The notes under the pieces: model-generated
Seen by the model: the letters and a program-made list of their open reading frames with translations, nothing else
What the model was told of the DNA's origin: nothing
Databases searched by the model: none
Source of the DNA: a virus
DNA length: 41,959 nucleotides
Virus record (IMG/VR): IMGVR_UViG_3300047562_000455
Coordinates: 1-41,959 of that record
Strand: one strand, 5' to 3'
Position numbers and translations under genes: made by a program
Part shown: positions 13,548 to 41,352 of the stretch, piece after piece
Position numbering within the stretch: the stretch's first letter is position 1
Layout of the letters: each line of letters begins with the position of its first letter

Positions 13548-13555
13548 TATTTATA
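13548..13555 (-). promoter_or_regulatory. T4-type late promoter for the head-core gene group
   Basis: Exact TATAAATA on the minus strand, 26 bases before the ATG at 13521. It overlaps the final codons of the ADP-ribosyltransferase-like gene and serves the genes from the core-like protein down to gp21. Confidence 0.85.
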
Positions 13556-14474
13556 TTTCTTCTACTAGCTGACAATAAAATAGTGTAATAGACAATTGTG
13601 ATCCTGAACCTAATAATACATCACTAGGCAATGAGTGTGGACCTGATACAACTACAATTTTTGATCCTCTTGGTAGCATTGTTTCCATTTCACCAGATTG
13701 TGTAAATGCTTCTGTATAGATTGACTTTTGTCCTTGTCCTATATCAATCTGCAACAGCGTGACAGAAGACATCTGTGCTTCTTCTGTTGCAGATTCAATG
13801 CATACATTGTAATCAAGAGATGTTGAAACATATCCTCTGAATACATATTCACTATTTACTTCTATCTGAGACGGATTGTATCTGCCGCTCAAGCAAGTAT
13901 AGACTGAGTAGTTGAAAGGCGCTTGACTGTCTTCAAAAAGTACATCAATTTCATTTACCATCTGAGTGACAAATCCTGCCAACTCTTCATCTGTTCCAGC
14001 ATCAAAACCTTGATATAGATATGTGTTAACAATTTCAAAGTCAGAAGAAACAAAATCGATAAGAGTATTGATTTCCATCGAATCAAACATCGAATCGTTG
14101 TAAAACTCTTTTAGAGCTTGATCGACTTGCATGACCATATTACTTTCATCACTGAGAATTTTTTGGTCATTCTGAGTTCTTTTGTAGACTGTATTTGTGT
14201 ACTGATCAGCTTGCTTTTTCAGTTCAGAAGTCTTTTCATTCTTACCGCTTGCTGAAGCTTTATTGTAGTTCGCATACATGTCTTGCTGATTACTAAAAGG
14301 AACAAGATTATCTCCATCAAGAAGGTATGCTATTGATCCTTGATTGTCAGCAAATCTATTAAATCCAACATATGTCAAACCCATCTTTTGAGCCTGTAAC
14401 ATTGCTTTTGACTTAGGTTGATTCAGTACCTGTGCAGCTAAAGATTCTTTTAAGAACTCATCATACTTGAGCAT
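13551..14474 (-). CDS. ADP-ribosyltransferase-like protein, possibly head-packaged (Alt-like role)
   Basis: A 307-residue protein whose C-terminal half carries features of R-S-E mono-ADP-ribosyltransferases (VIP2/ExoS type): the central motif VFRGYVSTSLD, with STS at about 217-219, and an ExE loop EMETMLPRGSKIVVVSG, with Glu262 and Glu264. The hydrophobic strand VTLLQIDIG between them also fits. Where most members have YRG for the first catalytic Arg, this one reads YTCLSGR, so the Arg is shifted or replaced. The helical N-terminal half (about 1-170) is unassigned. The start at 14474 is chosen for its GGAG ribosome site and overlaps the portal gene by 14 bases. T4 packages Alt in its head; this position suggests a similar fate, as inference. 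Confidence 0.72.
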   Translation of the reverse strand: MLKYDEFLKESLAAQVLNQPKSKAMLQAQKMGLTYVGFNRFADNQGSIAYLLDGDNLVPFSNQQDMYANYNKASASGKNEKTSELKKQADQYTNTVYKRTQNDQKILSDESNMVMQVDQALKEFYNDSMFDSMEINTLIDFVSSDFEIVNTYLYQGFDAGTDEELAGFVTQMVNEIDVLFEDSQAPFNYSVYTCLSGRYNPSQIEVNSEYVFRGYVSTSLDYNVCIESATEEAQMSSVTLLQIDIGQGQKSIYTEAFTQSGEMETMLPRGSKIVVVSGPHSLPSDVLLGSGSQLSITLFYCQLVEEI

Positions 14475-16149
14475 TCGCAGGCTCCATCGTATCATTCACA
14501 AAACGTTTCTTACTGGGTTGTGCTAATGGATTTGTCTGATTTTTACCCATGCCTGTTTGTGGTTCTGGTGCAACACCGGCACTTGCTGCTTTTAGACTTT
14601 CAGCAGGTGTAGGTGGTGGAACATTTACTGGCACATTGCCAGCACCCGGCATAGGATTACCAAACTCATCTGTTGGCATATTTTGAGATGCTTCTTGATT
14701 GATTTGCTCTAACATCTCTTCGATTTCTTCATCATCCATCTGAAGAATATTTCTGCGAACCCATTCCATAGAGTAATAGCGACCTACATATGGATCAATA
14801 AGCTGTAGTGTTTGAACACGATTTTGAAGAAGCTCTGCTTCTTTCAATTCTGTAAAATTGTTGTCTTTCTTGAAGTCGTACCACAGTTCTTCTTTGAATT
14901 CTTTCCATTCATCTTCGGTACAAATCTTCTTGAGAATACATTGTACTCTAAGAAGATCATCAAATAGAGTTGAGAATTTGTTACGAAGACGATTAACAAA
15001 CTTGGTAAACTTCAATTCATCTCTGGTAATTTCTGTTGTACGACCTAATGAGAATCCTTGTTGCTGTTCAAGTCGTGAGATAGGAACACCAAGAGCTTTG
15101 TAAAGCTTTTTTTCAAAGTACTTAACATCTTCCAATTCACCAAGGTTCATACCACCAGGAAGTGTTGTGATTTCTGTACCTTTACCACCTTCTCTACGTG
15201 GCAACCAAAAATCTTCAAGCATTGAAAGATGTTTGCGGTCGTCTTTGATTTCGCCTGTGCTGGAATCGTATACTAGTTTGTTACGATACTTGACCATAAC
15301 ATCACGCAAATATTGTTCGGCTTTGATTGTTGGCATATTACCAACGTCGATATAGAACACTCTGCGCTCAGGCGCGCGTGAGAGTCTGTAGATAACTGTT
15401 GCGTCTTCGACCATGCGAAGCTGATTGAGTGGCTTGATAGCTTTGTGTAGATAAGAGAGTACCATAGCTCTCTTAGAATCCATCAGACCTGAATTGACAT
15501 TTACAATAGCATCTAATGTGATCTTTGTACCAAGCTGTGAATGAGCACCAATCATACCTCTTTCATTGTAGAGGTAATATTCTTTAATCTGCTTGATGAC
15601 TTCCATTCCACTGTTTGGATCTTTTGTCTTTTGTACTTCGCGGATTTTGCGAATTCTGCGAGGATCAATGTATCTGATCTCTTGAATACCCTTCTGAGGC
15701 GACTTCTCATCAATGACAATATGATAGAATATTCTACCGTCAATGTACCATCTACGGAAAATATCATGTCCCATATTACCAAAATCAAGAAGCTTTAAAA
15801 TCTGATCAAATTCATCTCTGATCTTTTTCTTTACTGCATTAGATTCTTTGATTTCGTCTGTGATAAGTTCAACACCGCGTTCTTCATCATCATTAACAAT
15901 AGCTTCATTGACAATTTCATCTATAGCAGTTTCAAGTTCTGGCTGCATAGACATTTCACGATATCTTGTGATGAGTTCAATTTCATTACGAACAACACCA
16001 TCTAAGTCAACATATGTGCCATAGTAAGCACCCGACTGAATGGTTACAGCACCATCGTCGGTTGTTGGAATAGCAAACGATTTGTTACGTTCGTCTTCTT
16101 GCTGATTTTTCTTACGGCTTATTTCAAAACCGAAAAAGCTTACGGCCAT
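14461..16149 (-). CDS. 20: gp20 portal vertex protein
   Basis: The 562-residue protein (T4 gp20 is 524) forms the dodecameric portal through which DNA is packaged and to which the neck attaches. Diagnostic segments include GAYYGTYVDLDGVVRNEIEL, YREMSMQPELETAIDEIVNE and VQCILKKICTEDEWKEF, with QGFSLGRTTEITRDELKF in the typical place near the tunnel region. The Pro-rich tail (about 510-560) is variable. A CGGAGTG ribosome site precedes the ATG and a GC-rich hairpin lies just upstream (16168-16187). No exact late promoter was seen directly before it. Confidence 0.96.
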   Translation of the reverse strand: MAVSFFGFEISRKKNQQEDERNKSFAIPTTDDGAVTIQSGAYYGTYVDLDGVVRNEIELITRYREMSMQPELETAIDEIVNEAIVNDDEERGVELITDEIKESNAVKKKIRDEFDQILKLLDFGNMGHDIFRRWYIDGRIFYHIVIDEKSPQKGIQEIRYIDPRRIRKIREVQKTKDPNSGMEVIKQIKEYYLYNERGMIGAHSQLGTKITLDAIVNVNSGLMDSKRAMVLSYLHKAIKPLNQLRMVEDATVIYRLSRAPERRVFYIDVGNMPTIKAEQYLRDVMVKYRNKLVYDSSTGEIKDDRKHLSMLEDFWLPRREGGKGTEITTLPGGMNLGELEDVKYFEKKLYKALGVPISRLEQQQGFSLGRTTEITRDELKFTKFVNRLRNKFSTLFDDLLRVQCILKKICTEDEWKEFKEELWYDFKKDNNFTELKEAELLQNRVQTLQLIDPYVGRYYSMEWVRRNILQMDDEEIEEMLEQINQEASQNMPTDEFGNPMPGAGNVPVNVPPPTPAESLKAASAGVAPEPQTGMGKNQTNPLAQPSKKRFVNDTMEPANAQV

Positions 16150-23567: not shown

Positions 23568-23586
23568 AGAATTGAGGAATTACATT

Positions 23587-24786
23587 ATGATAGTTATCGG
23601 TGATTACATAAAAGACAAGTACATTTTTGGAACCAGCACAAGGCTCTCACCAGAAGCACCAGTTCCTGTGATAATACCCACACATGAAGAAGTTCGTCTT
23701 GGTGGTGCTTATAATGTAGTCAAAAATCTGCAAGCTTTTGGTGAAAATCCTCTATTCATACACAATCAAGATCAAGGAACGACTAAAACTCGCATCATTG
23801 CAAATGGTCACATTATCTGTCGCATAGACGATGAAGAGTATATTCCGTTTGTACCTGATCTGAATTTTGATCTTTCTCAGCACAAGTATGCTGTACTTTC
23901 AGACTATAACAAGGGCGTTCTGGACGATGCTCAGACTGTCATATGGAAACTCAATCTGGATGGCGTCAAAGTTTTGGTAGACCCCAAGAAAAGCTTTACT
24001 CACTATAGACATTCTTGGCTGATCAAAGCTAACAAGTCTGAGTATGAGTCTGCTATCGGTAGAAAATACTCATGGAACGAGTTCAGAGAATGTGCTGAAA
24101 TGCTGTGTGTCGAGTATGATTTTAAGTATCTGATCGTTACACTTGGCGCAGACGGTTATGCACTATATGATTATGAAAGAAACTCTTGTCGTTCTGAAAA
24201 AGGTGAAGAGCGTACAGTTCTTGATGTGACAGGCGCTGGTGATGTATTCATGGCAGCACTCGCATATTTTGTTCAGACTATGCCCGTAGAAAGAGCAGCA
24301 AGTCGTGCAAACATTCTAGCTGGTATTTCAGTCGGGCATATGGGCACTTATGTGTTGACAGAAAAAGACATTGAAACTGTATGTGCGAAACCAAACACCG
24401 TGTTTACCAATGGCTGCTTTGACATACTGCATCCTGGTCACATTCATCTACTCAAAGAGTCAAAAAAGCTTGGTCGCAGACTGATTGTCGGTATCAACTC
24501 AGATGCGTCAGTGCAGAAGATCAAGGGCTTTGACCGACCAATTCTAAAGCAGCATCAACGCAAGATTATGCTGGAAACGCTAGACATTGCAAATGAAGTG
24601 ATCATCTTTGATGAAGAGACGCCTTATGAACTGATCAAAAAGATCAGACCTGATATTATCACCAAGGGTGGTGATTATAAAATAGAAAATGTTGTGGGCA
24701 ATGACATTGCAAAAGTAGTGATCATACCTACTGTAGAGAACTATTCAACCACGAGAGTGATAAATGAGATTGTACGGAAGAGTTGA
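23587..24786 (+). CDS. hldE: Bifunctional heptose-7-phosphate kinase/heptose-1-phosphate adenylyltransferase (HldE-like)
   Basis: A 399-residue two-domain enzyme of ADP-heptose synthesis (E. coli HldE is 477). The N-terminal PfkB-type kinase has STRLSPEAPVPVI and RLGGAYNVVKNLQAFG, as in heptose kinases, and the PfkB signature DVTGAGD (about 213-219). The C-terminal cytidylyltransferase-like domain has TNGCFDILHPGHIHLL, with the nucleotide-binding HPGH at 282-285, and RPDIITKGGDYK. The ATG at 23587 is used because GAGGAA lies about eight bases before it; an upstream TTG at 23572 overlaps that site. It would phosphorylate heptose 7-phosphate and then adenylylate heptose 1-phosphate. The phosphatase GmhB and isomerase GmhA are not in the window. 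It overlaps the cupin gene by 23 bases. Confidence 0.9.
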   Translation: MIVIGDYIKDKYIFGTSTRLSPEAPVPVIIPTHEEVRLGGAYNVVKNLQAFGENPLFIHNQDQGTTKTRIIANGHIICRIDDEEYIPFVPDLNFDLSQHKYAVLSDYNKGVLDDAQTVIWKLNLDGVKVLVDPKKSFTHYRHSWLIKANKSEYESAIGRKYSWNEFRECAEMLCVEYDFKYLIVTLGADGYALYDYERNSCRSEKGEERTVLDVTGAGDVFMAALAYFVQTMPVERAASRANILAGISVGHMGTYVLTEKDIETVCAKPNTVFTNGCFDILHPGHIHLLKESKKLGRRLIVGINSDASVQKIKGFDRPILKQHQRKIMLETLDIANEVIIFDEETPYELIKKIRPDIITKGGDYKIENVVGNDIAKVVIIPTVENYSTTRVINEIVRKS

Positions 24787-25111
24787 TAAGTCTTGGGGTT
24801 ACGAAGATATCTTTGTGTCTACTGACGAATACTGCGGCAAATACCTTGTATTTAATCAAAAGGGTGATAAAACTACCATGCACTTTCACAAAGAGAAGAA
24901 AGAGACATGGAAAGTTGAACGAGGTCGTTTCATTGTGCGCTTCATTGATACCAATGATGGTAGAGAATTGGAAACCGTGATTGGTTCTGGTGATGTATGG
25001 ACAAATGAACCTCTGTTACCTCATCAGTTAGAAGCAATGGAAGATGATTCGTGTGTGTTAGAAATTTCAACACCAGACTCAGTTGAAGACAACTATAGGC
25101 TATACAGATGA
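24764..25111 (+). CDS. Small cupin protein, sugar-nucleotide pathway type
   Basis: A 115-residue single-domain cupin. The motif HFHKEKKETWKVERGRF (about 41-57) supplies the metal-binding His and Glu pattern, and a second motif region NEPLLPHQLEAMEDDS follows. It resembles the C-terminal cupin domain of mannose-6-phosphate isomerase/GDP-mannose pyrophosphorylase (WGYE near the start is typical), and small cupins of this kind often sit in surface-sugar clusters. The reaction is unknown: isomerase, epimerase or sugar sensing are possible. It overlaps hldE upstream and the epimerase gene downstream (ATGA), so the three plus-strand genes form one operon. Confidence 0.8.
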   Translation: MRLYGRVDKSWGYEDIFVSTDEYCGKYLVFNQKGDKTTMHFHKEKKETWKVERGRFIVRFIDTNDGRELETVIGSGDVWTNEPLLPHQLEAMEDDSCVLEISTPDSVEDNYRLYR

Positions 25112-25911
25112 AAGTATTAGTAACAGGTTCAGAAGGTTTCATTGGTCGTAACCTTGTTGCTGCTCTCAAAAACCGCGGCGATGATGTATTGGAATTTGAT
25201 ACCAAGAACTATCGACCAGAAGAGTTACCTGCGCTCTATAATATAACTGAAGTTAAGATGATCTATCATCTAGGTGCTATTTCTAGCACACTTGAAACAA
25301 ATCTTGATGCTCTATATCGACACAATGTAGAGTTCTCACTTGATCTGTTCAATACAGCTATCAGTCATAGAATTCCCGTTGTGTATACCACATCTGCATC
25401 TGTCTTTGGTAACACAATGAAAGACGGACAGTACATCTACAATCCTCTGAACTACTACGCAACAACCAAGATGCTGACTGAGATGTGGTTGTTTCAGAAC
25501 AAAAGCAAGTTTCATGCCCTATCAGTACCTAGACTGTTCAATGTCTACGGTGCAGATGAACGCAAAGCTGATATGTCTACTAGCCCAATCTGCAAGTTCA
25601 CTCAACAAGCGAAAGAGACAGGTGTGATTACCTTATTTAAGGGATCACACAACATGATCCGTGACTTTATTGCTATTGAAGATGTGCTTGAAGTTCTTAT
25701 AGATATTCCAAAATGGAGCTTCTATGATGTTGGCACTTGTTTACCTATCAGCTTTCAAGATGTTGCTGAAATGATAGCTGACAAGTATAATGCGACTATC
25801 AAGTATGTGCCGATGCCAGATCATATGCGACCGTCATATCAGTACTACACCAAAGCAAGACAGAATGTTATTTGGTTTAAAACTGTAGAACAGTGGTTGA
25901 AGTCTCAATAA
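25108..25911 (+). CDS. NAD(P)-dependent sugar-nucleotide epimerase, HldD-like
   Basis: A 267-residue extended short-chain dehydrogenase/epimerase. It has the Rossmann motif GSEGFIG (7-13), IYHLGAISSTLET (the HLGA-SST pattern is characteristic of ADP-heptose 6-epimerases), TSASVFG with the catalytic Ser/Thr, and the active-site YxxxK as YATTK (Y117, K121). The short length compared with E. coli HldD (310) comes mainly from the C-terminal half. With the HldE-like gene two genes upstream, the simplest reading is ADP-D-glycero-D-manno-heptose to the L-glycero epimer, but other NDP-sugars cannot be excluded. It ends only four bases from the convergent sulfotransferase gene. Confidence 0.85.
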   Translation: MKVLVTGSEGFIGRNLVAALKNRGDDVLEFDTKNYRPEELPALYNITEVKMIYHLGAISSTLETNLDALYRHNVEFSLDLFNTAISHRIPVVYTTSASVFGNTMKDGQYIYNPLNYYATTKMLTEMWLFQNKSKFHALSVPRLFNVYGADERKADMSTSPICKFTQQAKETGVITLFKGSHNMIRDFIAIEDVLEVLIDIPKWSFYDVGTCLPISFQDVAEMIADKYNATIKYVPMPDHMRPSYQYYTKARQNVIWFKTVEQWLKSQ

Positions 25912-29413: not shown

Positions 29414-30601
29414 TTAGTAGTCACCTGATGAGATTGCTGTTGTGTGATAAGTACCAGCAGAAACTAGTTTCCAGTTAGTTAATGAACCAATCTGAACTGG
29501 TGATGATTTAGAAACAATAGTGCCATCACCGAGACGACCAGAACCATTACCACCCCAAGTCCATAATGTACCATCAGTTTTTATTGCTGCTGTGTGATAA
29601 CCGCCGGCAGATACTAGTTTCCAGTCAGTCAATGATCCAATCTGAACTGGTGATGATTTAGGAACAACAGTACCATCACCGAGACGACCATTAGTATTAC
29701 GACCCCAAGCCCAAAGAGTACCATCAGTCTTTATTGCTACTGTGTGATTACCACCACCAGAAACTTGTTTCCAGTCAGTCAATGATCCAATCTGAACTGG
29801 TGATGATCTACGAGTAATAGTACCATCACCAAGTTGACCATTATCATTAAAACCCCAAGTCCAAAGTGTGCCATCTGTCTTGATTGCTAATGTAAAAGAT
29901 CCACTAAAAACTGTGCGAGAAACAACAACTTGTTTCCAGTTAGTCAATGAACCAATCTGAACTGGTGATGATTTATAAACAACAGTACCATCACCAAGTG
30001 CACCATAAAAATTCTGACCCCAAGTCCATAATGTACCATCAGTCTTTATTGCTGCTGTATGACGACCACCAGCAGAAACTTGTTTCCAATTTGTTAATGT
30101 GCCAACTTGAATCGGAGATGATTTAGATACAGTAGTACCATCACCAAGTGTACCATCAAAATTATTACCCCAAGTCCATAATGTACCATCAGTCTTTATT
30201 GCTGCTGTGTAACTACCACCAGCAGCAACTTGCTTCCAGTTAGTCAATGAACCAATCTGGACTGGTGATACTTTGTCAGTAGCAACACCGCCAGTGCCAT
30301 CACCAAGTTGACCAGAACCATTCTGACCCCAAGTCCAAAGTGTGCCATCTGTCTTGATTGATGTTGTATGTTCATAACCAGCAGAAAGTAGTTTCCAGTT
30401 AGTTAATGAACCAATTTGAACTGGTGATGATTTGTCAACAATAGTACCATCACCGAGACGGCCATCATCTCCTTCGCCCCAAGCATACAGTCCTTTCTCA
30501 TAGAAAGTATCAGCAGACACAAACATATCATCCATGTCAACATAAGTTGTTGATGGTGTGCCGTCTGAGTTTAGTATTGCGAATCTGTAGTTTGTGGTCA
30601 T
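29414..30601 (-). CDS. RCC1-repeat seven-bladed propeller protein, copy 1
   Basis: A 395-residue protein of which nearly all is RCC1-type repeat, about 50 residues each, with seven WxWGxNxxGxLGDGT blocks, enough for a closed seven-bladed beta-propeller. Each repeat also has SSPVQIGSLTNWK and SAGxxHTAAIKTDGTLW. A short N-terminal cap (about 35 residues, MTTNYRFAILNSDGTPSTTY) may attach it to a virion part. Blade four to five contains an insertion (SRTVFSGSFT). There is no signal peptide. The location between surface-sugar genes and fibre genes indicates a tail-fibre tip or other virion adhesin. It is a close paralogue of the two other RCC1 genes here. Confidence 0.85.
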   Translation of the reverse strand: MTTNYRFAILNSDGTPSTTYVDMDDMFVSADTFYEKGLYAWGEGDDGRLGDGTIVDKSSPVQIGSLTNWKLLSAGYEHTTSIKTDGTLWTWGQNGSGQLGDGTGGVATDKVSPVQIGSLTNWKQVAAGGSYTAAIKTDGTLWTWGNNFDGTLGDGTTVSKSSPIQVGTLTNWKQVSAGGRHTAAIKTDGTLWTWGQNFYGALGDGTVVYKSSPVQIGSLTNWKQVVVSRTVFSGSFTLAIKTDGTLWTWGFNDNGQLGDGTITRRSSPVQIGSLTDWKQVSGGGNHTVAIKTDGTLWAWGRNTNGRLGDGTVVPKSSPVQIGSLTDWKLVSAGGYHTAAIKTDGTLWTWGGNGSGRLGDGTIVSKSSPVQIGSLTNWKLVSAGTYHTTAISSGDY

Positions 30602-30610
30602 GTTACTCTC

Positions 30611-31816
30611 TTAAATGTATCCGTCAAGGATTGCTGCTGTGTGATTACCACCACCAGAAACTTGTTTCCAGTTAGTCAATGAACCAATCTGAACTGGTGA
30701 TGATTTGTCAACAATAGTACCATCACCAAGACGACCGCTAGCATTATTACCCCAAGCCCATAAAGTACCATCTGTCTTGATTGCTGCTGTGTGACTACCA
30801 CCAGCACCAGCAGCAACTAGTTTCCAGTTTGTTAAGGATCCAATCTGAACTGGAGATGATCTATGAGTAACAGTACCATCACCAAGTTGACCAGAAATAT
30901 TACGACCCCAAGTCCATAAGGTACCATCTGTTTTAATTGCTGCTACATGATCTTCGCCAGTCGCAACTTGTTTCCAGTTAGTTAATAATCCAACTTGAAT
31001 TGGTGATGACTTACTAACAATAGTACCATCACCAAGTTGACCATCTTGACCAAGACCCCAAGTCCATAAAGTACCATCAATTTTGACAGCAACTGTGTAA
31101 CCTCTGCCAGTCGCAACTTGTTTCCAGTTAGTCAATGAACCAATCTGAATTGGTGATAATCTATCAGTAGTAAGATTATTACCAAGTTGACCATCATCAT
31201 TACGACCCCAAGACCACATAGTGCCGTCTGTTTTAACTGCTGCTGTGTGATTAAACCCAGCAGAAACTAGTTTCCAGTTAGTTAATAAACCAATCTGAAC
31301 TGGTGATGATCTGTTTGTTGTAGTACCATCACCAAGACGACCGTTAGTATTATCACCCCAAGCCCAAAGGGTACCATCAGTCTTTATTGCTGCTGTGTGA
31401 CCACTATCAGCATCAACTTGTTTCCAGTTAGTCAGTGATCCAATCTGAACTGGTGATGATTTAGAAACAATAGTGCCATCACCGAGACGACCATCAGCAC
31501 CATTGCCCCAAGTCCATAAAGTACCATCAGTCTTGATTGCTGCTGAATGGGTACCACCACCAGACATTTGTTTCCAATTCGTCAATAATCCAATCTGAAC
31601 AGGTGATGATTTATCAACAATAGTACCATCACCAAGTTGACCGACATTATTACGACCCCAAGTCCAAATCCCCGGAGTAGTTCTACCAGGTATCAATTCC
31701 GGATACAGATCAAGCAAGTAATCTTTGCTGACATAACGCTCACCGAGATCCTGTGTATTAGGACCACCATCAACATTGACTATCTTGAATCCAGTATTTG
31801 GACCTGTTACAGACAT
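30611..31816 (-). CDS. RCC1-repeat seven-bladed propeller protein, copy 2
   Basis: A 401-residue protein with a 45-residue N-terminal cap (MSVTGPNTGFKIVNVDGGPN, then YVSKDYLLDLYPELI) followed by seven RCC1 blades. The blade 4 core deviates (GQLGNNLTTDRLSPIQIG), while the others keep LGDGT. Blade-to-blade differences concentrate in the loop between WG and LGDG and just before SSPVQIG. The cap differs from that of copy 1 but shares the idea of a short strand plus a YVS/DMDD element. It lies nine bases upstream of copy 1 and three bases after the DUF4376-like gene, so all are cotranscribed. Confidence 0.85.
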   Translation of the reverse strand: MSVTGPNTGFKIVNVDGGPNTQDLGERYVSKDYLLDLYPELIPGRTTPGIWTWGRNNVGQLGDGTIVDKSSPVQIGLLTNWKQMSGGGTHSAAIKTDGTLWTWGNGADGRLGDGTIVSKSSPVQIGSLTNWKQVDADSGHTAAIKTDGTLWAWGDNTNGRLGDGTTTNRSSPVQIGLLTNWKLVSAGFNHTAAVKTDGTMWSWGRNDDGQLGNNLTTDRLSPIQIGSLTNWKQVATGRGYTVAVKIDGTLWTWGLGQDGQLGDGTIVSKSSPIQVGLLTNWKQVATGEDHVAAIKTDGTLWTWGRNISGQLGDGTVTHRSSPVQIGSLTNWKLVAAGAGGSHTAAIKTDGTLWAWGNNASGRLGDGTIVDKSSPVQIGSLTNWKQVSGGGNHTAAILDGYI

Positions 31817-31819
31817 TTG

Positions 31820-32467
31820 TTATTCCAATACGATTGCTTTAAGTTCTTGTTCTGTCTGAGCAGCATTGATTGCATTATGAGTTGTGAGTTCCCAATCAAA
31901 GCAAGTCTGAATGTGTGTTTTGCCTGCAAAGACAATCTGTTCCATATCATTCTTTGTTACACTGATCCATGTCTCAGGAAACTTCCAGTTGATTGTTTCT
32001 GTGTCTGCCATAGCAAGATATGTATCCAAGAATATCTGTCTACCTTCTCTTGTCGTATCAACTGTTACTTCCGTACTTTGAATTGTGATCTTGAAACCAC
32101 CTACTTCTTTTTTGTAGCGATTGTTCGTCACAGTAGTTTTCAATGTGCCTTTGATCTGTTCAAGAGGTGAGGAAACAGCGTTGTATGTCTCTGTTGCTTC
32201 GTTGTTAGCATATGAATAGTATGGTCCAGCAAGCTGCTCATAGATGCCATCATGTGCTGGCACATTTGATGTTATTACAGGAAATATTTCAAGCCCTTCA
32301 CCAAGAGCAAGATAGTTGCTTTCTGGTGCAATAGGAGGAATAGTGTACTGCTCAGTGATATCGCCCGCTTCAAGAAGATCATTGATTTCTCTCTGAAACA
32401 TTCTTTGTCTCCATGGCATTGGACCAAGAAGAACTGTTTGCTGATCTTTAACGATTATGTAGTTCAT
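31820..32467 (-). CDS. DUF4376-like tail fibre accessory protein, copy 1
   Basis: A 215-residue protein. The C-terminal half shows a pattern typical of DUF4376-type phage proteins: NNRYKKEVGGFKITI, INWKFPETWISVTKND, then THIQTCFDWELTTHNAINAA and QTEQELKAI. The N-terminus YIIVKDQQTVLLGPMPWRQR is a fibre-associated start also seen in marine phages. Members lie beside fibre genes and are thought to be virion or assembly accessory proteins. It is interleaved between RCC1 copies 2 and 3, which suggests a specific relation to one of them. The function is inferred from context. Confidence 0.65.
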   Translation of the reverse strand: MNYIIVKDQQTVLLGPMPWRQRMFQREINDLLEAGDITEQYTIPPIAPESNYLALGEGLEIFPVITSNVPAHDGIYEQLAGPYYSYANNEATETYNAVSSPLEQIKGTLKTTVTNNRYKKEVGGFKITIQSTEVTVDTTREGRQIFLDTYLAMADTETINWKFPETWISVTKNDMEQIVFAGKTHIQTCFDWELTTHNAINAAQTEQELKAIVLE

Positions 32468-32479
32468 GTTTTTCCTCTA

Positions 32480-33655
32480 TTATGATAATTCTCTGTATGT
32501 AATTGCTGTTGTGTGATTACCACCACCAGCACCACCAGCAGCAACTAGTTTCCAGTTAGTCAATGATCCAATTTGAACTGGTGATGATTTAGAAACAACA
32601 GTACCATCACCAAGTTGGCCATATTGATTACGACCCCAAGACCATAGAGTGCCATCAGTCTTGATTGCTACTGTGTGGGCATCACCAGCAGATACTAGTT
32701 TCCAGTTAGTCAATGATCCAATCTGGACTGGTGATGATTTATAAACAACAGTACCATCACCAAGTTGACCAGAAATATTTAAACCCCAAGCCCATATAGT
32801 ACCATCAGTTTTAACTGCTACTGTATGGGCAGAACCAGCATCAACTTGTTTCCAGTTAGTTAATGAACCAATCTGAACTGGAGATGATTTATCAAGAATG
32901 GTGTCATCACCAAGTTGACCAAAACCATTTTCACCCCAAGTCCATAGTGTACCATCTGTCTTGACTGCTGCTGTGTGATCATTACCAGCAGATACTTGTT
33001 TCCAATTCGTCAATAATCCAATTTGAACTGGTGATGATTTAGAAACAACAGTACCATCACCAAGACGACCAGAAGCACCATTACCCCAAGTCCATAGAGT
33101 ACCATCTGTCTTGACTGCTGCTGTGTGTTGATTACCAGCAGATACTTGTTTCCAATTCGTCAATAATCCAATTTGAACTGGTGATGATTTATTAACAACA
33201 GTACCATCACCAAGTGCGCCACCGATATTATAACCCCAAGACCATAGAGTACCATCAGTCTTAATTGCTGCTGTGTGATACAGACCAGCAGAAACCAGTT
33301 TCCAGTTAGTCAATGATCCAATTTGAACTGGTGATGATTTAGAAACAACAGTACCATCACCAAGTTGACCATTAATATTACCACCCCAAGTCCATAGAGT
33401 ACCATCAGTCTTGACTGCTGCTGTGTGATCCAGACCAGCAGAAACCAGTTTCCAGTTTGTTAAGGATCCAATCTGAACTGGAGATGATTTATTATCAATA
33501 GTGCCATCACCAAGACGACCAAAAGTATTACGACCCCAAGCCCATACAGCATCACCAACAAAACGCTCAATCAAATCCGCATCTGTGATGAACTTCTCAT
33601 CCAGATCAACATACTGCTCTAACTCTTGATCGTAGTATTTGTAGTTGCTAGTCAT
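32480..33655 (-). CDS. RCC1-repeat seven-bladed propeller protein, copy 3
   Basis: A 391-residue protein with a short N-terminal cap (MTSNYKYYDQELEQYVDLDE, then KFITDADLIERFVGD) and seven RCC1 blades, each with WxWG, LGDGT (LGDDT in blade 5), SSPVQIG and HTAAVKTDG. The cap again has an F/YITDADL-type element like the YVSKDYLL of copy 2, so the caps may share a docking function. The start ATG overlaps the stop of the S74 chaperone protein (ATGA), and the gene is probably read from the late promoter at 34330-34337. Confidence 0.85.
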   Translation of the reverse strand: MTSNYKYYDQELEQYVDLDEKFITDADLIERFVGDAVWAWGRNTFGRLGDGTIDNKSSPVQIGSLTNWKLVSAGLDHTAAVKTDGTLWTWGGNINGQLGDGTVVSKSSPVQIGSLTNWKLVSAGLYHTAAIKTDGTLWSWGYNIGGALGDGTVVNKSSPVQIGLLTNWKQVSAGNQHTAAVKTDGTLWTWGNGASGRLGDGTVVSKSSPVQIGLLTNWKQVSAGNDHTAAVKTDGTLWTWGENGFGQLGDDTILDKSSPVQIGSLTNWKQVDAGSAHTVAVKTDGTIWAWGLNISGQLGDGTVVYKSSPVQIGSLTNWKLVSAGDAHTVAIKTDGTLWSWGRNQYGQLGDGTVVSKSSPVQIGSLTNWKLVAAGGAGGGNHTTAITYRELS

Positions 33656-34302
33656 CTATTCTTCAATTCTTCTACTTGCTTGCTCAGGTCTTTGACTGCT
33701 TCAATCAGAACAGCAATCAGACCATTGTAGTTAACAGACTTCTCATCACCGACAAGTTCAGGCAGCACCTTCTCGACTTCTTGAGCGATAACACCAAGCG
33801 ATGGTAAACCGTTATCTTTCCAATCAAAGCGAACACCATTCAGTAAGTTAACAAGAGTTACTGCATCTGTGATCTGAGTGATGTTTGTCTTCTTGTTGAT
33901 GTCTGATGTTGAGTTGAATACAGTTGATGATAGTGTGCCTGTATCTACATTGAATGTCAGCTTAGTAGATGCGACATTGATAGATGATGCTGTACCAGAT
34001 GTGGTTGTTGTAAATGTGATGTATTGAAGTGGTGTTACGCTTGATTGATCTGTTATTGTTACTGAGCCACCACCACCACCACCAATCGCACCCCAAGCTG
34101 TAGCGTTTCTTCCTTCAAAGCTACCTGTTTCAGAGTTAAAACGAATAAGACCTTGTTCTGCTGTTGGTCTACTAGCAGTGTCCCCAACAGGCAATTTAAC
34201 CGCACCAGATGTGACACGAACAATATTATCGCCGCCAACATAATCTATGCGATTGGTACCTGCTGAATCAAAATGTACATTTGCGACTTTTAATATTGAC
34301 AT
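33652..34302 (-). CDS. Short fibre protein with C-terminal S74 intramolecular chaperone domain
   Basis: A 216-residue protein. Residues 1-75 are a fibre-type head (RPTAEQGLIRFNSETGSFEG is a motif of T4-like fibre/virion proteins). After a Gly-rich hinge (GGGGGG at 74-79) and a beta-rich Thr/Ser part, residues about 131-216 are a peptidase S74/ICA chaperone: SDINKKTNI with the likely catalytic Ser133 and Lys138, then GVIAQEVEKVLPELV and YNGLIAVLIEAVKDLSKQVE. In the family this domain trimerises a fibre and cleaves itself off just before the Ser. An exact late promoter lies 27 bases upstream. Confidence 0.88.
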   Translation of the reverse strand: MSILKVANVHFDSAGTNRIDYVGGDNIVRVTSGAVKLPVGDTASRPTAEQGLIRFNSETGSFEGRNATAWGAIGGGGGGSVTITDQSSVTPLQYITFTTTTSGTASSINVASTKLTFNVDTGTLSSTVFNSTSDINKKTNITQITDAVTLVNLLNGVRFDWKDNGLPSLGVIAQEVEKVLPELVGDEKSVNYNGLIAVLIEAVKDLSKQVEELKNR

Positions 34303-34337: not shown

Positions 34338-34533
34338 AGCCTTCGTCATGTTCTATGGACTTTTCGCAGTGATTTGGATCTATCTTGTCTGCTATCCAAC
34401 AAAACCATCTGCATAAAATACATGTGCTTAGTATTTTAGCACATCTGGAAGAGATAGTTTCATCTGGATCACCGCCTAAAAGAGTGTTACCAAGCTGATC
34501 TACAGATATAAGTATGTTCCAAAGATATTTCAT
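34333..34533 (-). CDS. Small conserved phage protein (GGDPDETISSR type)
   Basis: A 66-residue protein that begins MKYLWNILISVDQLGNTLLG. The hydrophobic N-terminal helix and the motif LLGGDPDETISSRCAK recur in small proteins of many phages and prophages, often near tail fibre or lysis genes; the function is not established. Cys residues are frequent in the second half (ILSTCILCRWFCWIAD). The ATG overlaps the stop of the DUF4376 gene (ATGA), which supports this start over one 24 bases upstream. A role at the membrane is possible from the hydrophobicity. Confidence 0.75.
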   Translation of the reverse strand: MKYLWNILISVDQLGNTLLGGDPDETISSRCAKILSTCILCRWFCWIADKIDPNHCEKSIEHDEGL

Positions 34534-35144
34534 GGCCAATAAGCTGTATTTGCCCAATCTTCTGGTATTGGATCCATATCCTTCAATGCTCTAGCAGCAA
34601 AGATATGCGCTCTTTCATGTTCTGCTGCTGTTTGTCCAAACGCAATAACCGTTGGCGCATCCATTTGGACAATTGAGTTGTCTTGAGCAATCCAAGAAAA
34701 TGGTTCTGTGCCACCATGCCACAGATAATTGTTTGCTTGTGCGCCCTGTGTAACTGCCATGAAAGCAAGAAGCGCAGCACCAGATATACGCTTCTGATCT
34801 TCTGGTCTGCTGTCAAACATTGTATCGTTAAACAAAAATCCTTGTGCGATAAGTTCATCCCTATATCCAGTGATAGAATCAAGTGTTTTGGTTCTTTTAG
34901 CAGCAAGTTCAGCAGCGATCTCTTCTGAAGTTTTGTCTCTAACAATCCAGTCAATCGCTTGTGAATTCCATTCCAAAACTTGTGTATCAGTAATAGTTGG
35001 CTTATCAGATACTTCAGTGTATCCAGCATCAGCAATTTCTTCTATTGTAAATGAAGTCGGATCAGTTCTTGTTCTACCATCAGACAACCTAATCCTGAAT
35101 GGTATTGTTTGTGGATATGCGCCGTTGTATGAATATAGTGTCAT
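34530..35144 (-). CDS. DUF4376-like tail fibre accessory protein, copy 2
   Basis: A 204-residue protein with the phage DUF4376 pattern in its C-terminal part: AAKRTKTLDSITGYRDELIA, LFNDTMFDSRPEDQKRISGA, WHGGTEPFSWIAQDNSIVQM, and HIFAARALKDMDPIPEDWAN. The N-terminal part (YSYNGAYPQTIPFRIRLSDG) resembles fibre-associated domains that hold incoming fibre genes. It is coupled to the downstream 66-residue gene. Such proteins accompany exchangeable fibres; whether they stay on the virion or assist folding is unknown. Confidence 0.78.
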   Translation of the reverse strand: MTLYSYNGAYPQTIPFRIRLSDGRTRTDPTSFTIEEIADAGYTEVSDKPTITDTQVLEWNSQAIDWIVRDKTSEEIAAELAAKRTKTLDSITGYRDELIAQGFLFNDTMFDSRPEDQKRISGAALLAFMAVTQGAQANNYLWHGGTEPFSWIAQDNSIVQMDAPTVIAFGQTAAEHERAHIFAARALKDMDPIPEDWANTAYWP

Positions 35145-35909: not shown

Positions 35910-37301
35910 TTAAAACGTATATGGTCCAACAAAAGTTAATCTACTAGATGTAACAGCAGCATTTGTTACAGTATCTACTGTAGTCCAATTTGAACCGTCA
36001 TTGGATACATCTATGCTCCAGTCATCTGGGTCTCTAGTTGCTTCATCATTTGCTGTAGCCCATCTATAACCATTGAAATTTCCTGATCTGCCGGCACCAA
36101 AATCAAAAACGAGTGTTGTTGTAACACCATTAAGATCTAACCATTTAGTTGCTGTATTATTATCTATTAGATTTGGCGGTTCTTCACCAGATGGATGTGA
36201 ACCGCCTGGATTTGTAACAATAACACCAGACATAGATATATCAGAACCGTTCAATTGAAGACGAAATTCTGATGCTTGAACAACTGCGGCTCCTTTGTTT
36301 CCGGTTATAACCCATCTAACAAATCTATAACCACTAGGAATCGAACTTAACGATTCTAATACTGCTTGAAGATTGAAGATACCATCATTAGAAGGAATAG
36401 TTATTGGATCTCCCTGTCCATCGCCTGTGTTTGTAGATGGAAACGCTCTATTTTCTCCCCAGATAATTCTAACTGCACCGCCTGCACCAGGACCATTTTC
36501 ATTCGATAGTTCAGCGCCACCACCACCACCGCCATAATTACCGCCTGTTGATGGATTGGCGGTGGAACCTGGACTTACGCTACCGCTATCACCACCTGAA
36601 CCACCACCACCTGGTCCACCATTACTACCTCCGTAAAATCCTGCGGTGCCATTAGCGCCTTCGCCCAATATGCCAACGCCGCCGCCTGCACCAGCAGCAT
36701 CTGAGTCGCCACCAGCGCCACCACCGCCACCGCCGCCACCAGATCCAGCTTGACCTGCATTATTGATAGCACCGCCATTGCCGCCATTTCCAGAGTAACC
36801 ACCAGCGCCACCACCACCTGTAGCATCTGCTGTGCTCGTATGAGTTGGAACATTACCGCCGTTGCCGCCACCATCACCAACATATCCACCGCCAAGTTTA
36901 GTTGCACCATCATCTGCGCCGCCTTGACCGCCAAAACCAGCAACCGTTGTATCGTCTATAAAATAGCTATTACCGCCGTCACCTGCAGCACCAGTACCAG
37001 CCCTTATTCCACCTGCACCAACAACAACAGTATATGATTGACCTGGAATAACTGTTATATTATTTTTCCATCCAAGACCGCCGCCAGCGCCACCGTAGCC
37101 ACCTGCGCCGTTACGATGATTACCACCGCCACCGCCACCAACAGCAACAACACAAACACTGGTTACACCATCAGGACATGTCCAAGAGTATGTACCTGGT
37201 GTTGTGTATGCTTGCTCTCCCGCTGCTAAGCTTGAAGCAAGCTGATAAGAAGTTGTTACACCAACAAAACCACCGTTAAGATATACACTCTGTAAAGGCA
37301 T
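35910..37301 (-). CDS. Glycine-rich fibre protein with C-terminal discoidin-like domain
   Basis: A 463-residue protein in three parts. Residues 1-50 hold a beta head with YTTPGTYSWTCPDGVTSVCV, a recurrent start of phage glycine-rich proteins. Residues about 50-280 are Gly-rich (GGGGG runs, GNGG, AGGYSGNGG), like the polyglycine-helix sandwich of T4-like adhesins such as gp38. Residues about 310-463 resemble an F5/8 type C (discoidin) carbohydrate-binding domain: ASEFRLQLNG, PPNLIDNNTATKWLDLNGVT, LVFDFGAG, WSIDVSNDGSNWTTVDTVT. It is probably a receptor-binding tip or fibre protein. The gene's Gly tracts make the DNA locally GC-richer. Confidence 0.78.
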   Translation of the reverse strand: MPLQSVYLNGGFVGVTTSYQLASSLAAGEQAYTTPGTYSWTCPDGVTSVCVVAVGGGGGGNHRNGAGGYGGAGGGLGWKNNITVIPGQSYTVVVGAGGIRAGTGAAGDGGNSYFIDDTTVAGFGGQGGADDGATKLGGGYVGDGGGNGGNVPTHTSTADATGGGGAGGYSGNGGNGGAINNAGQAGSGGGGGGGGAGGDSDAAGAGGGVGILGEGANGTAGFYGGSNGGPGGGGSGGDSGSVSPGSTANPSTGGNYGGGGGGAELSNENGPGAGGAVRIIWGENRAFPSTNTGDGQGDPITIPSNDGIFNLQAVLESLSSIPSGYRFVRWVITGNKGAAVVQASEFRLQLNGSDISMSGVIVTNPGGSHPSGEEPPNLIDNNTATKWLDLNGVTTTLVFDFGAGRSGNFNGYRWATANDEATRDPDDWSIDVSNDGSNWTTVDTVTNAAVTSSRLTFVGPYTF

Positions 37302-38004: not shown

Positions 38005-41000
38005 TTATACTATTGCTATTCTTGCGTTTGCTTGTATTGTTAGTGTTCTGTTTGCTGCAACTGTGATTGGACCAGCAGCAAGTGCATTATTACCTGAGTA
38101 TATAGTTGTGTTCGTAGTTAGCGTATTTGTATGAACACGGAAGATGTCACCAAGTCCAGTTGCGATTCCTGTATCTCCATTATTGCCTTGGAAATATCCG
38201 CCGCCACTAGAACCCTGAATACCTTGTGTGCCAATAGCGCCCTGAGTTCCTGTTGCACCCTGAGTTCCTGTTGTTCCTTGACGACCTTGAATACCCTGTG
38301 CACCAGTAGTACCTTGTGATCCAGTTGATCCAGTAGCACCTTGACTTCCTGTAGCGCCTGTTGTTCCTTGAGTGCCTGTAGTACCTTGTGATCCAGTTGA
38401 TCCTGTAGCGCCTTGAGTACCAGTAGCACCTTGTGTACCAGTAGCGCCTTGTGATCCAGTAGCACCAGTTGTACCCTGACTTCCTGTAGCACCTGTTGAT
38501 CCTGTAGCACCTTGACTTCCTGTAGCGCCTTGAGAACCAGTAGTACCTTGTGAGCCAGTTGATCCAGTAGCACCAGTTGTACCCTGACTTCCTGTAGCGC
38601 CTGTTGTTCCTTGACTTCCTGTAGCACCAGTTGATCCAGTGGTACCTTGTGATCCAGTTGCACCAGTTGATCCAGTGGTACCTTGAGTACCTGTAGTACC
38701 TTGACTTCCTGTAGCACCAGTTGATCCAGTGGTACCTTGAGTACCTGTAGTACCCTGAGTACCTGTAGTACCTTGACTTCCTGTAGCACCAGTTGATCCA
38801 GTGGTACCTTGTGATCCAGTTGCACCAGTTGATCCAGTGGTACCTTGACTTCCTGTAGTACCCTGAGAACCAGTGGTACCTTGAGTACCTGTAGCACCTT
38901 GCGTACCTGTTGATCCTGTAGCACCTTGACTTCCTGTAGCGCCAGTCGTACCTTGAGAACCTGTAGTACCCTGTGAACCTGTTGATCCAGTAGCGCCTTG
39001 AGAACCAGTCGCGCCAGTCGTACCTTGAGAACCTGTTGTACCTTGAGAACCAGTGGTACCCTGACGACCTTGAACACCTTGTGATCCAGTTGCACCTTGA
39101 GTACCAGTCGTTCCTTGTGAACCAGTTGCACCAGTAGTGCCTTGAGTGCCAGTTGCACCTTGAGAACCAGTTGCACCAGTAGTGCCCTGAGAACCAACAG
39201 CGCCTTGAGAACCAGTTGATCCAGTGGTGCCTTGAGAACCTGTGGCACCTGTTGTTCCTTGAGAACCAACAGCGCCTTGAGAACCAGTTGATCCGGTTGT
39301 GCCTTGTGATCCTGTTGATCCAGTTATACCCTGTGAACCTGTAGCACCTGTCGTACCTTGAGAACCAGTTGATCCAGTGGCGCCTTGAGAACCTGTGGCA
39401 CCTGTTGTTCCTTGAGAACCAACAGCGCCTTGAGAACCAGTTGATCCGGTTGTGCCTTGAGTACCAGTAGCACCTTGTGTACCAGTGGCGCCTTGTGATC
39501 CAGTAGCGCCTTGTGATCCAGTAATGCCTTGAATACCTTGAATCGCTTGAACAGAGTTTGCTTTATCATATGCTGCATTCGCAGTCTCATTTACTGCTCT
39601 AATCCAAATAATAGTGTTAGAGCCAGCAAGTGTTAAATTGGATGTACGGACATCAGCATTCAAAACAGCTAATGTCATATTGTTAGAAAATGCACCTATA
39701 TGATTGTTTGCTGGTTCAGCATCATAACCATTAAACAAATAATACATCTTGTCTTCATGTTCACGATAAAGACCAGTATGAACATTTTGACCAGTTGCGT
39801 TGACATAATTGCCTATAAAACCAATATCCACGATATCAGAAGAATAGTTATTTCCAGCAAGATACAGAAGTGGATCAGAAACTCTTAGATTTTCAGCGTT
39901 AACAAAAGTTGTATTGCCTGAAACAGTCAAGTTTCCAGCAACGCTCAAATCACCAGATATAGTTCCACCTGTTTTTGGAAGAGCGTTTGCAGCAATACTA
40001 TTAGCAGTGTTTGCTTGATTATAAGCTAGAACAATAGTTGCTACTACATTGGTTGTTCCGATAATAAGTGTATTTGATGCTGGATTATAAGTGAATCCAG
40101 GTGCAGATTGTGCAGTTTGATTTGATCCTGTTGTTGTTACAAATACGGGATAAACTAGATCGTTTACTGTTACGAGAGTAGAATTTATCTGTGTAGATGG
40201 ACCAATTGGACCTTGAGTGCCTTGAGTGCCTTGAGACCCTGTGACTCCTTGTGATCCAGTGATACCTTGAGAACCTGTAGTTCCTTGTGATCCAGTGGTA
40301 CCTTGAGAACCTGTAGTTCCTTGTGATCCAGTGGTACCTTGAGATCCGGTGGTACCCTGAGTACCTGTGGTACCTTGTGACCCAGTAGTGCCCTGAGAAC
40401 CAGTTGATCCTGTAGTACCCTGAGATCCAGTAGTACCCTGTGAACCTGTGGAACCCGTAGTACCTTGAGAACCTGTAGTACCTGTAGAACCTTGACTTCC
40501 TGTTGTACCCTGACTACCAGTTGATCCAGTAGTACCTTGAGAGCCAGTTGATCCAGTAGTACCTTGAGAGCCAGTTGTGCCTTGTGATCCTGTCGTTCCT
40601 TGTGATCCTGTCGTTCCTTGTGATCCTGTCGTTCCTTGAGTACCTGTAGTACCTTGACTTCCTGTTGTACCCTGACTACCAGTTGATCCAGTAGTGCCCT
40701 GAGAACCAGTTGATCCAGTAGTACCTTGAGTTCCAGTTGCACCTTGAGAACCAGTTGATCCAGTGGCGCCTTGAGAACCTGTAGTACCTGTAGAACCTTG
40801 ACTTCCTGTTGTACCCTGACTACCAGTTGATCCAGTTATACCCTGTGAACCTGTATCACCTGTCGTACCTTGAGTACCGGTTGCACCTTGAGTACCTGTA
40901 GTACCCTGAGAACCAGTGGTACCTTGAACGCCTTGAGTACCTTGTGTACCAGTAGCACCTTGTGTACCAGTAGCACCTTGTGTACCAGTTGTTCCCTGAG

Positions 41001-41352
41001 GACCTTGTATACCCTGCGCGCCAGTTGTACCTTGTGCGCCATCAGTTAGAATAGCTGAAATTGTTATGGAATCATTAAGGGCGTCACCTGTAATTTGAAT
41101 ATTATTACCAGGTAAAAGATTAAGAACATCTCCCGAAGTATCTGCAACAATAAGAGTTCCTGCTGCATTAACTGTTCCAAATGCATCAGCTTGAGGAGGC
41201 AAATCAGATACGAATGATTTGATTGTACCTGTGTTACTCTTATAATACAGTTTACCATCAGCATAGTTAATAGCCAACTCGCCGTTTGCAAGTGAAGTTG
41301 GCTCTGAACCAGGTATTGCTGATTTTTTAAGAGTTATTACTGTGTTAGACAT
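38005..41352 (-). CDS. Collagen-like giant tail fibre protein
   Basis: A 1115-residue protein. Residues 1-104 form a virion-fibre head containing [20 protein letters not shown], a common start of marine T4-like fibre proteins. Two long Gly-X-Y blocks follow (about 105-388 and 607-1052), mostly [12 protein letters not shown] and GST triplets, with very little proline. A central globular part (about 389-606) contains [54 protein letters not shown] and a helical AYDKANSVQ spacer. The C-terminal tip (about 1053-1115) is beta-rich. The collagen blocks should form trimeric rods. DNA repeats make length change by recombination likely. Confidence 0.9.
38200..39540 (-). repeat. Tandem 9-base-phased collagen-coding repeats, second block
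   Basis: The DNA repeats short units coding Gly-X-Y triplets, mainly alternating [15 protein letters not shown] with two higher-order forms seen many times: CAGTTGATCCAGTGGTACC and TTGTGATCCAGTTGCACC on the plus strand. The block encodes about residues 607-1052 of the collagen-like protein. Its length is likely to change through slipped pairing or unequal recombination. Confidence 0.85.
40200..41040 (-). repeat. Tandem 9-base-phased collagen-coding repeats, first block
   Basis: A second run of the same Gly-X-Y coding units, about residues 105-388 of the collagen-like fibre, with short exact copies such as TTGTGATCCTGTCGTTCC repeated several times in a row near 40579-40630. Near-identical units in both blocks could recombine and delete the central domain. 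Confidence 0.85.

Follow-up and report, generated by a model that had tools for sequence, protein, structure and literature searches.

We propose that a T4-like (cyanophage-like) myovirus probably recognizes its host with a set of RCC1-type propellers, encoded by three genes, in which blades recombine and one face of the propeller diversifies. The window analyzed here is the whole stretch of 41,959 nucleotides, positions 1-41,959 of IMG/VR record IMGVR_UViG_3300047562_000455. Under the proposed mechanism, each member would carry a short paralogue-specific N-terminal segment that serves as a docking tag, followed by a propeller whose frame is a fixed scaffold and whose 42 variable positions form one exposed, rapidly changing face that may bind a variable surface ligand. 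Homologous recombination would copy blade DNA inside each gene as well as among the three, homogenizing the frame and moving loop variants between blades, and selection for new binding would keep the face diverse.

Three seven-bladed RCC1 genes reside in a fibre locus

Gene A (paralogue type 1; minus strand, 32480-33655), gene B (type 2; minus strand, 30611-31816) and gene C (type 3; minus strand, 29414-30601) each encode a seven-bladed RCC1 propeller, of 391, 401 and 395 amino acids, respectively. The window contains 21 PF00415 matches, seven tandem repeats of about 50 amino acids per gene and all above the curated cut-off, and the RCC1 propeller repeats (PF00415/PF25390) were detected as seven stretches per protein at 290-305 bits, confirming an initial sequence-only reading of three RCC1 paralogues with exactly seven blades each. 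A search of NCBIfam yielded no match. Each protein begins with a segment specific to its paralogue, covering amino acids 1-37 in gene A (minus strand, 33545-33655; motif VDLDEKFITDADLIERFVG), 1-50 in gene B (minus strand, 31667-31816; motif DLGERYVSKDYLLDLYPEL) and 1-38 in gene C (minus strand, 30488-30601; motif YVDMDDMFVSADTFYEKG).

The three genes share one locus, as had been described, but are not strictly tandem, because a gene for a DUF4376 (PF14301) tail-fibre-type protein (minus strand, 31820-32467) lies between A and B. Directly upstream of A is a gene for a peptidase S74 (endosialidase chaperone) fibre or baseplate protein (minus strand, 33652-34302), and the fibre locus encodes another DUF4376 protein at 34530-35144 (minus strand). 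The RCC1 genes are thus located within a tail-fibre cluster, as is expected of receptor-binding proteins or tail adhesins, and the locus, with its S74, two DUF4376 and collagen-like fibre genes, fits a tail-fibre or adhesin module.

Other genes of the window were noted as well. The collagen-like tail fibre of the same locus (minus strand, 38005-41352) is 1115 amino acids long and matches Collagen at 357 bits, and a protein with glycine-rich and F5/8 type C (discoidin-like) domains (minus strand, 35910-37301) is a candidate for a further adhesin. The rest of the window is occupied by clustered T4-like structural genes (portal, tube, sheath, terminase, scaffold, protease and capsid), among which the portal is closest to those of Synechococcus phages. 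Adjoining the portal gene, the product of 13551-14495 (minus strand) weakly matches Alt-like ADP-ribosyltransferases. Beside the structural cluster, on the opposite (plus) strand, are heptose kinase/adenylyltransferase-like (23572-24786) and nucleotide-sugar epimerase-like (25108-25911) genes.

Variation is concentrated in six columns of the blade

The 21 window blades were aligned by anchor motifs into 50 columns. Successive blades are 50 residues apart, except for four short insertions (+3 in blade C2, +5 in C4, +4 in A7 and +2 in B6) that all sit in the same two loops as the variable sites. Columns 5, 7 and 8 (after WxWG), 18 (before K/R-SSPVQIG) and 38-39 (before HTAAI) have entropies of 2.4-3.1 bits and 7-10 residue types, while all other columns range from 0 to 1.7 bits; variation is moderate at columns 2, 10, 16, 35, 36 and 42, and the invariant columns include 3, 4, 9, 11, 12, 21, 22, 24, 31 and 32. 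These six columns account for 35% of all pairwise differences, compared with 12% on average and at most 29% when six columns were drawn at random 10,000 times, so the proposed focusing of variation at fixed blade positions stood up to direct measurement. Six columns in each of seven blades correspond to 42 fast-changing residues per propeller. The residues at these sites are of a binding type (D, N, S, G, R and Y), with D the commonest, and K, W, M and C are absent.

The same columns stand out among 163 blades of nine genomes, and each genome taken alone gives nearly the same top columns, with column-rate correlations to the window of 0.71-0.80. Among 1,847 blades from the loci obtained by a wider search, the entropy order in a 51-column numbering was 39, 5, 40, 8, 7, 18, which are exactly the six sites of the 50-column alignment.

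The variable columns lie on one face of the predicted propeller

AF2 models of genes A and C show a full propeller of seven four-stranded blades. The gene A model has a pLDDT of 87.4 and a pTM of 0.85, with amino acids 1-33 below a pLDDT of 50, and the gene C model has a pLDDT of 87.6 and a pTM of 0.83, with a less certain N-terminal hairpin. The top PDB folds were HERC2 (Z 54) and UVR8 (Z about 51), these two together spanning Z 50-54, in match lists that do not exclude other families. By DSSP assignment of both models, columns 5-18 lie in the loop that links the LWTWG strand to the SSPVQIG strand, and columns 38-39 lie in the turn that joins KLVSAG to HTAAIK. Because the strands alternate in an antiparallel meander, both variable loops are on one face. 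The turns of the opposite face, TDGT and SLTN, are nearly constant.

The face assignment was cross-checked by alignment to UVR8 (rmsd 1.4-1.8, 33-35% identity). Column 5 is equivalent to W94 of UVR8, column 7 to D96, column 18 to D107, column 38 to W233/W285 and column 39 to R234/R286, and column 8 corresponds by register to D44. These counterparts are residues of the UVR8 dimer interface (PMC5108777, PMC8748919), whose contacts comprise R286-D96/D107, R338-E43/D44 and the Trp pyramid (PMC8748919, PMC5108777). The buried tryptophan ring of UVR8, described in the same two papers, is the counterpart of invariant column 3. On the models and on UVR8 homology, all six variable columns therefore lie on one propeller face. 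This entropy mapping was the check proposed at the outset, and the variable sites proved neither scattered nor buried, so the idea of a binding scaffold is partly supported, namely in its geometry.

Although they share this fold, and although UVR8 uses the same face for protein contact, UVR8 and HERC2/RCC1 are single proteins with other functions and no repeated hypervariability. BLIP-II also has an RCC1-like propeller fold and binds protein with picomolar affinity (1jtd, 3qhy), but it is a non-phage beta-lactamase inhibitor of lower structural similarity (Z 32).

Relatives retain the gene order

Related proteins are encoded by 19 viral-contig loci and several cyanophage records. A query with the TPR protein gave one close relative, L044 (contig 3300010885_019762), whose methyltransferase and TPR neighbours are 85% identical to those of the window; a query with the S74 protein gave distant loci only. 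In all loci with recognizable N-terminal types, the genes occur in the order 1, 2, 3, and in six relative records conversion of contig to locus coordinates places the sole DUF4376 match between genes 1 and 2. Three genes were present in 19, and 21 blades in 18, of the 35 non-redundant arrays flanked by at least 1.5 kb on each side; several three-gene arrays (e.g. L015, L017, L046 and L110) have quite different N-termini. The count of seven blades, exact in A, B and C, is not absolute in relatives, as the type 3 protein of the nearest relative (L044, 2317-3339) and the type 1 protein gp335 of Synechococcus phage S-SRM01 (L028:1755-2789) have six, a sign of blade loss.

The proteins of S-SRM01 (Kyanoviridae; gp335, gp337 and gp344) are about 50% identical to those of the window. 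The two share the order of N-terminal types, a concerted frame, a DUF4376 gene between the first two members and an S74 distal long-tail-fibre gene before them, but in S-SRM01 the type 3 gene lies further off behind other genes. The S-SRM01 paper makes no mention of RCC1 and describes neither variability nor function of these proteins.

Other arrangements were also observed among viral contigs. L061, L077, L058 and L084 encode giant multi-propeller fusions of 21, 21, 42 and 48 blades, and blade counts in such fusions are often multiples of seven. L106 and L109 carry not three single-propeller RCC1 genes but about seven or eight in a row.

Propeller frames evolve in concert and N-termini remain private

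Blades outside the six columns were compared across 16 loci with an ordered triplet. Frame identity averaged 0.753 between blades of different paralogues within one genome and 0.655 between genomes, whether the gene position was the same or another (difference -0.0001, sd 0.0032), so that the propellers retain no orthologue signal. For the N-termini, the roughly 40-45 residues before the first blade, the best match in another genome came from the equivalent gene position in all 48 cases. This opposite behavior indicates that the paralogues are old and that the propellers, not the N-termini, were homogenized in each lineage. Paralogues were more alike than to any other genome's orthologue in 9 of the 16 genomes, and in the remaining genomes their likeness was slightly below that to the nearest relative. 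The isolate S-SRM01 has the same concerted frame (0.753 versus at most 0.717). Module swapping was not found, as the type-specific N-termini were not seen on non-RCC1 open reading frames of the loci compared.

A conserved N-terminus followed by a fast-evolving distal part, as is typical of tail adhesins, was also evident in substitution rates. Between gene B and its L044 orthologue, pN was lowest in the N-terminus (0.106), intermediate in the frame (0.179) and highest at the variable sites (0.529). Together, the fibre-locus context, the fast distal face, the conserved N-terminus and the binding-type residues suggest a role in recognition.

Non-silent changes are in excess at the variable codons

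Exposed loop residues could instead drift neutrally under relaxed constraint, on blades that are alike through recent duplication and have no selected binding face. In 16 close orthologue pairs, pN/pS was 0.099/0.433 in the frame and 0.463/0.423 at the variable sites, as neutral drift would produce, and codon sharing among blade frames (0.74 versus 0.41 expected) shows that the blades have a recent common ancestor. With pN and pS so similar at the variable sites of orthologues, relaxed constraint near saturation could account for some of the signal. However, the other-face turns, TDGT and LTN, scarcely vary, and the variable sites favour D, N, S, Y and R and have no K. In addition, among variable-codon pairs in the window, codon bases 1 and 2 differ at frequencies of 0.72 and 0.66, compared with 0.35 for base 3. 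Within the window array, pN was 0.62 and pS 0.39 at variable codons (bootstrap lower limit of the difference 0.12), and the corresponding pN/pS values were 0.61/0.28 in S-SRM01 and 0.39/0.08 in L065. This excess of pN was clear in recently homogenized arrays (window, L028, L065, L057, L072, L076 and L023); in older arrays both values were near saturation. On this balance, neutral drift appears rather unlikely as the explanation of the whole pattern, and a selected binding face is preferred.

Possible alternative functions of the variable face

The propellers might recognize each other or other fibre subunits, providing assembly specificity or exclusion of rival phages, and not a host receptor. 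The homologous face of UVR8 is a homodimer interface, and an ordered three-gene set with paralogue-specific N-termini is suggestive of assembly. A co-inherited interface should nonetheless keep matched residues, and likeness at the variable sites was 0.14 within and 0.12 between genomes, which leaves mutual recognition a fairly improbable function.

The annotations "regulator of chromosome condensation" and "DNA condensation protein" would imply a role in packing DNA in the virion. The name is inherited from eukaryotic RCC1, which is a Ran exchange factor. The variable faces are not basic (no K, with D the commonest residue), and the neighbouring genes encode fibre and chaperone proteins, not head proteins. 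Despite the homologue annotation and the suggestion of such a role by the authors of the phage W70 study (PMC11370258), DNA packing is therefore a very improbable function.

Recombination as the probable means of renewal

The sequence-only reading had remarked that most variable codons end in T, and this proved correct for 101 of 126 codons, compared with 64.6 (sd 5.1) expected if these codons followed the usage of the window as a whole. Plain codon usage was ruled out as the source at about 7 sd and is also contradicted by conserved frame sites that keep AAC (column 30) and ACA (column 41). The excess fits a third base that keeps the state of the copied ancestor as the first two change, with codon selection at these sites as a less likely alternative.

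T-ending codons with near-random first two bases, together with variable residues clustered on one display surface of a fixed scaffold, are also what would be expected of targets of a diversity-generating retroelement, in which reverse transcriptase turns template-repeat adenines into variable codons (NNT from AAT). Neither a reverse transcriptase in the genome nor adenine-specific substitution, by which such targets are recognized, was found. No PF00078 match was present in 15 records, including the complete genomes of S-SRM01 (240,842 b) and BUCT-ZZ01 (156,057 b), although the window genome itself is incomplete, and no template repeat was seen; a retroelement is thus not supported. Furthermore, consensus A is not the most changeable base at the variable sites, frame adenines are mostly fixed (0.13 changed in the window), and column 6, which has a hypervariable codon on either side, keeps AAT in 17 of 21 blades. 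We give a retroelement origin hardly any credence. Because reverse transcriptase was not found in these records, adenines are not preferred and AAT is kept, homologous recombination coupled with selection is the best account.

Sharing of loop-residue blocks between blades was considered as proof of shuffling and set aside, being weak in most genomes, and shuffling was judged by exact DNA tracts instead. In L065, the newest array, genes 1 and 2 have exact tracts of 179, 124 and 102 nt in common between non-equivalent blades, and these tracts bring variable residues along. Such mosaics could stem from metagenomic repeat assembly, but the S-SRM01 isolate shows the same concerted frame. In the window, the longest exact tract is 54 nt between genes and 71 nt within gene A. 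The window array is older than the L065 array, and since its inter-gene tracts are short, we infer recombination there mainly from shared frame and codons.

Phage RCC1 sets and their meaning

Phage RCC1 proteins and virion-borne RCC1 sets are already known, and the earlier assumption that RCC1 propellers are chiefly known from eukaryotes and would be unusual in phages was mistaken. RCC1 matches were obtained in 50-72 phage records (72 at E 0.01), in 94 plasmid records and in at least 600 stretches of viral contigs. Multi-copy phage sets have also been published. The proteins W70_237-239 of Escherichia phage W70 were detected in virions by mass spectrometry with 141-233 spectra each (PMC11370258), and GAP_001 of phage GAP32, a distant RCC1 homologue, was also reported in virions (PMC5259590). 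The W70 triplet (phrog_4219) resembles that of the window in being three adjacent RCC1-annotated proteins of about 400 amino acids. It differs in having similar N-termini (MLEMxNL motif) that are not paralogue-specific, diverged propellers of about 23% identity with no homogenized blade, and flanks of small hypothetical genes, not fibre genes. In the open-access literature searched, we found no description of a hypervariable face, a triplet with private N-termini or concerted evolution, and nothing on topic linking RCC1 to phage adhesins, propellers or diversity-generating retroelements.

The proteins of the window would likewise be carried on the virion. More tentatively, the locus could constitute a repertoire without reverse transcriptase, in which three constant, paralogue-specific docking segments lead to one (pseudo-threefold) tip, 21 blade cassettes are shuffled and homogenized through recombination among the genes, and a variable surface of 126 residues is renewed on a scaffold that remains uniform. 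Assembly of A, B and C as a heterotrimer would be speculative.

Phage RCC1 proteins have been filed under a eukaryotic name and at times guessed to pack DNA. The data presented here point instead to a common scaffold of environmental phages with a defined variable face and recombination-based renewal, comparable in purpose to the targets of diversity-generating retroelements, though the retroelement itself was not found. For annotators, this offers a probable identity for these genes, and for experimenters, it names 42 positions per protein to probe.
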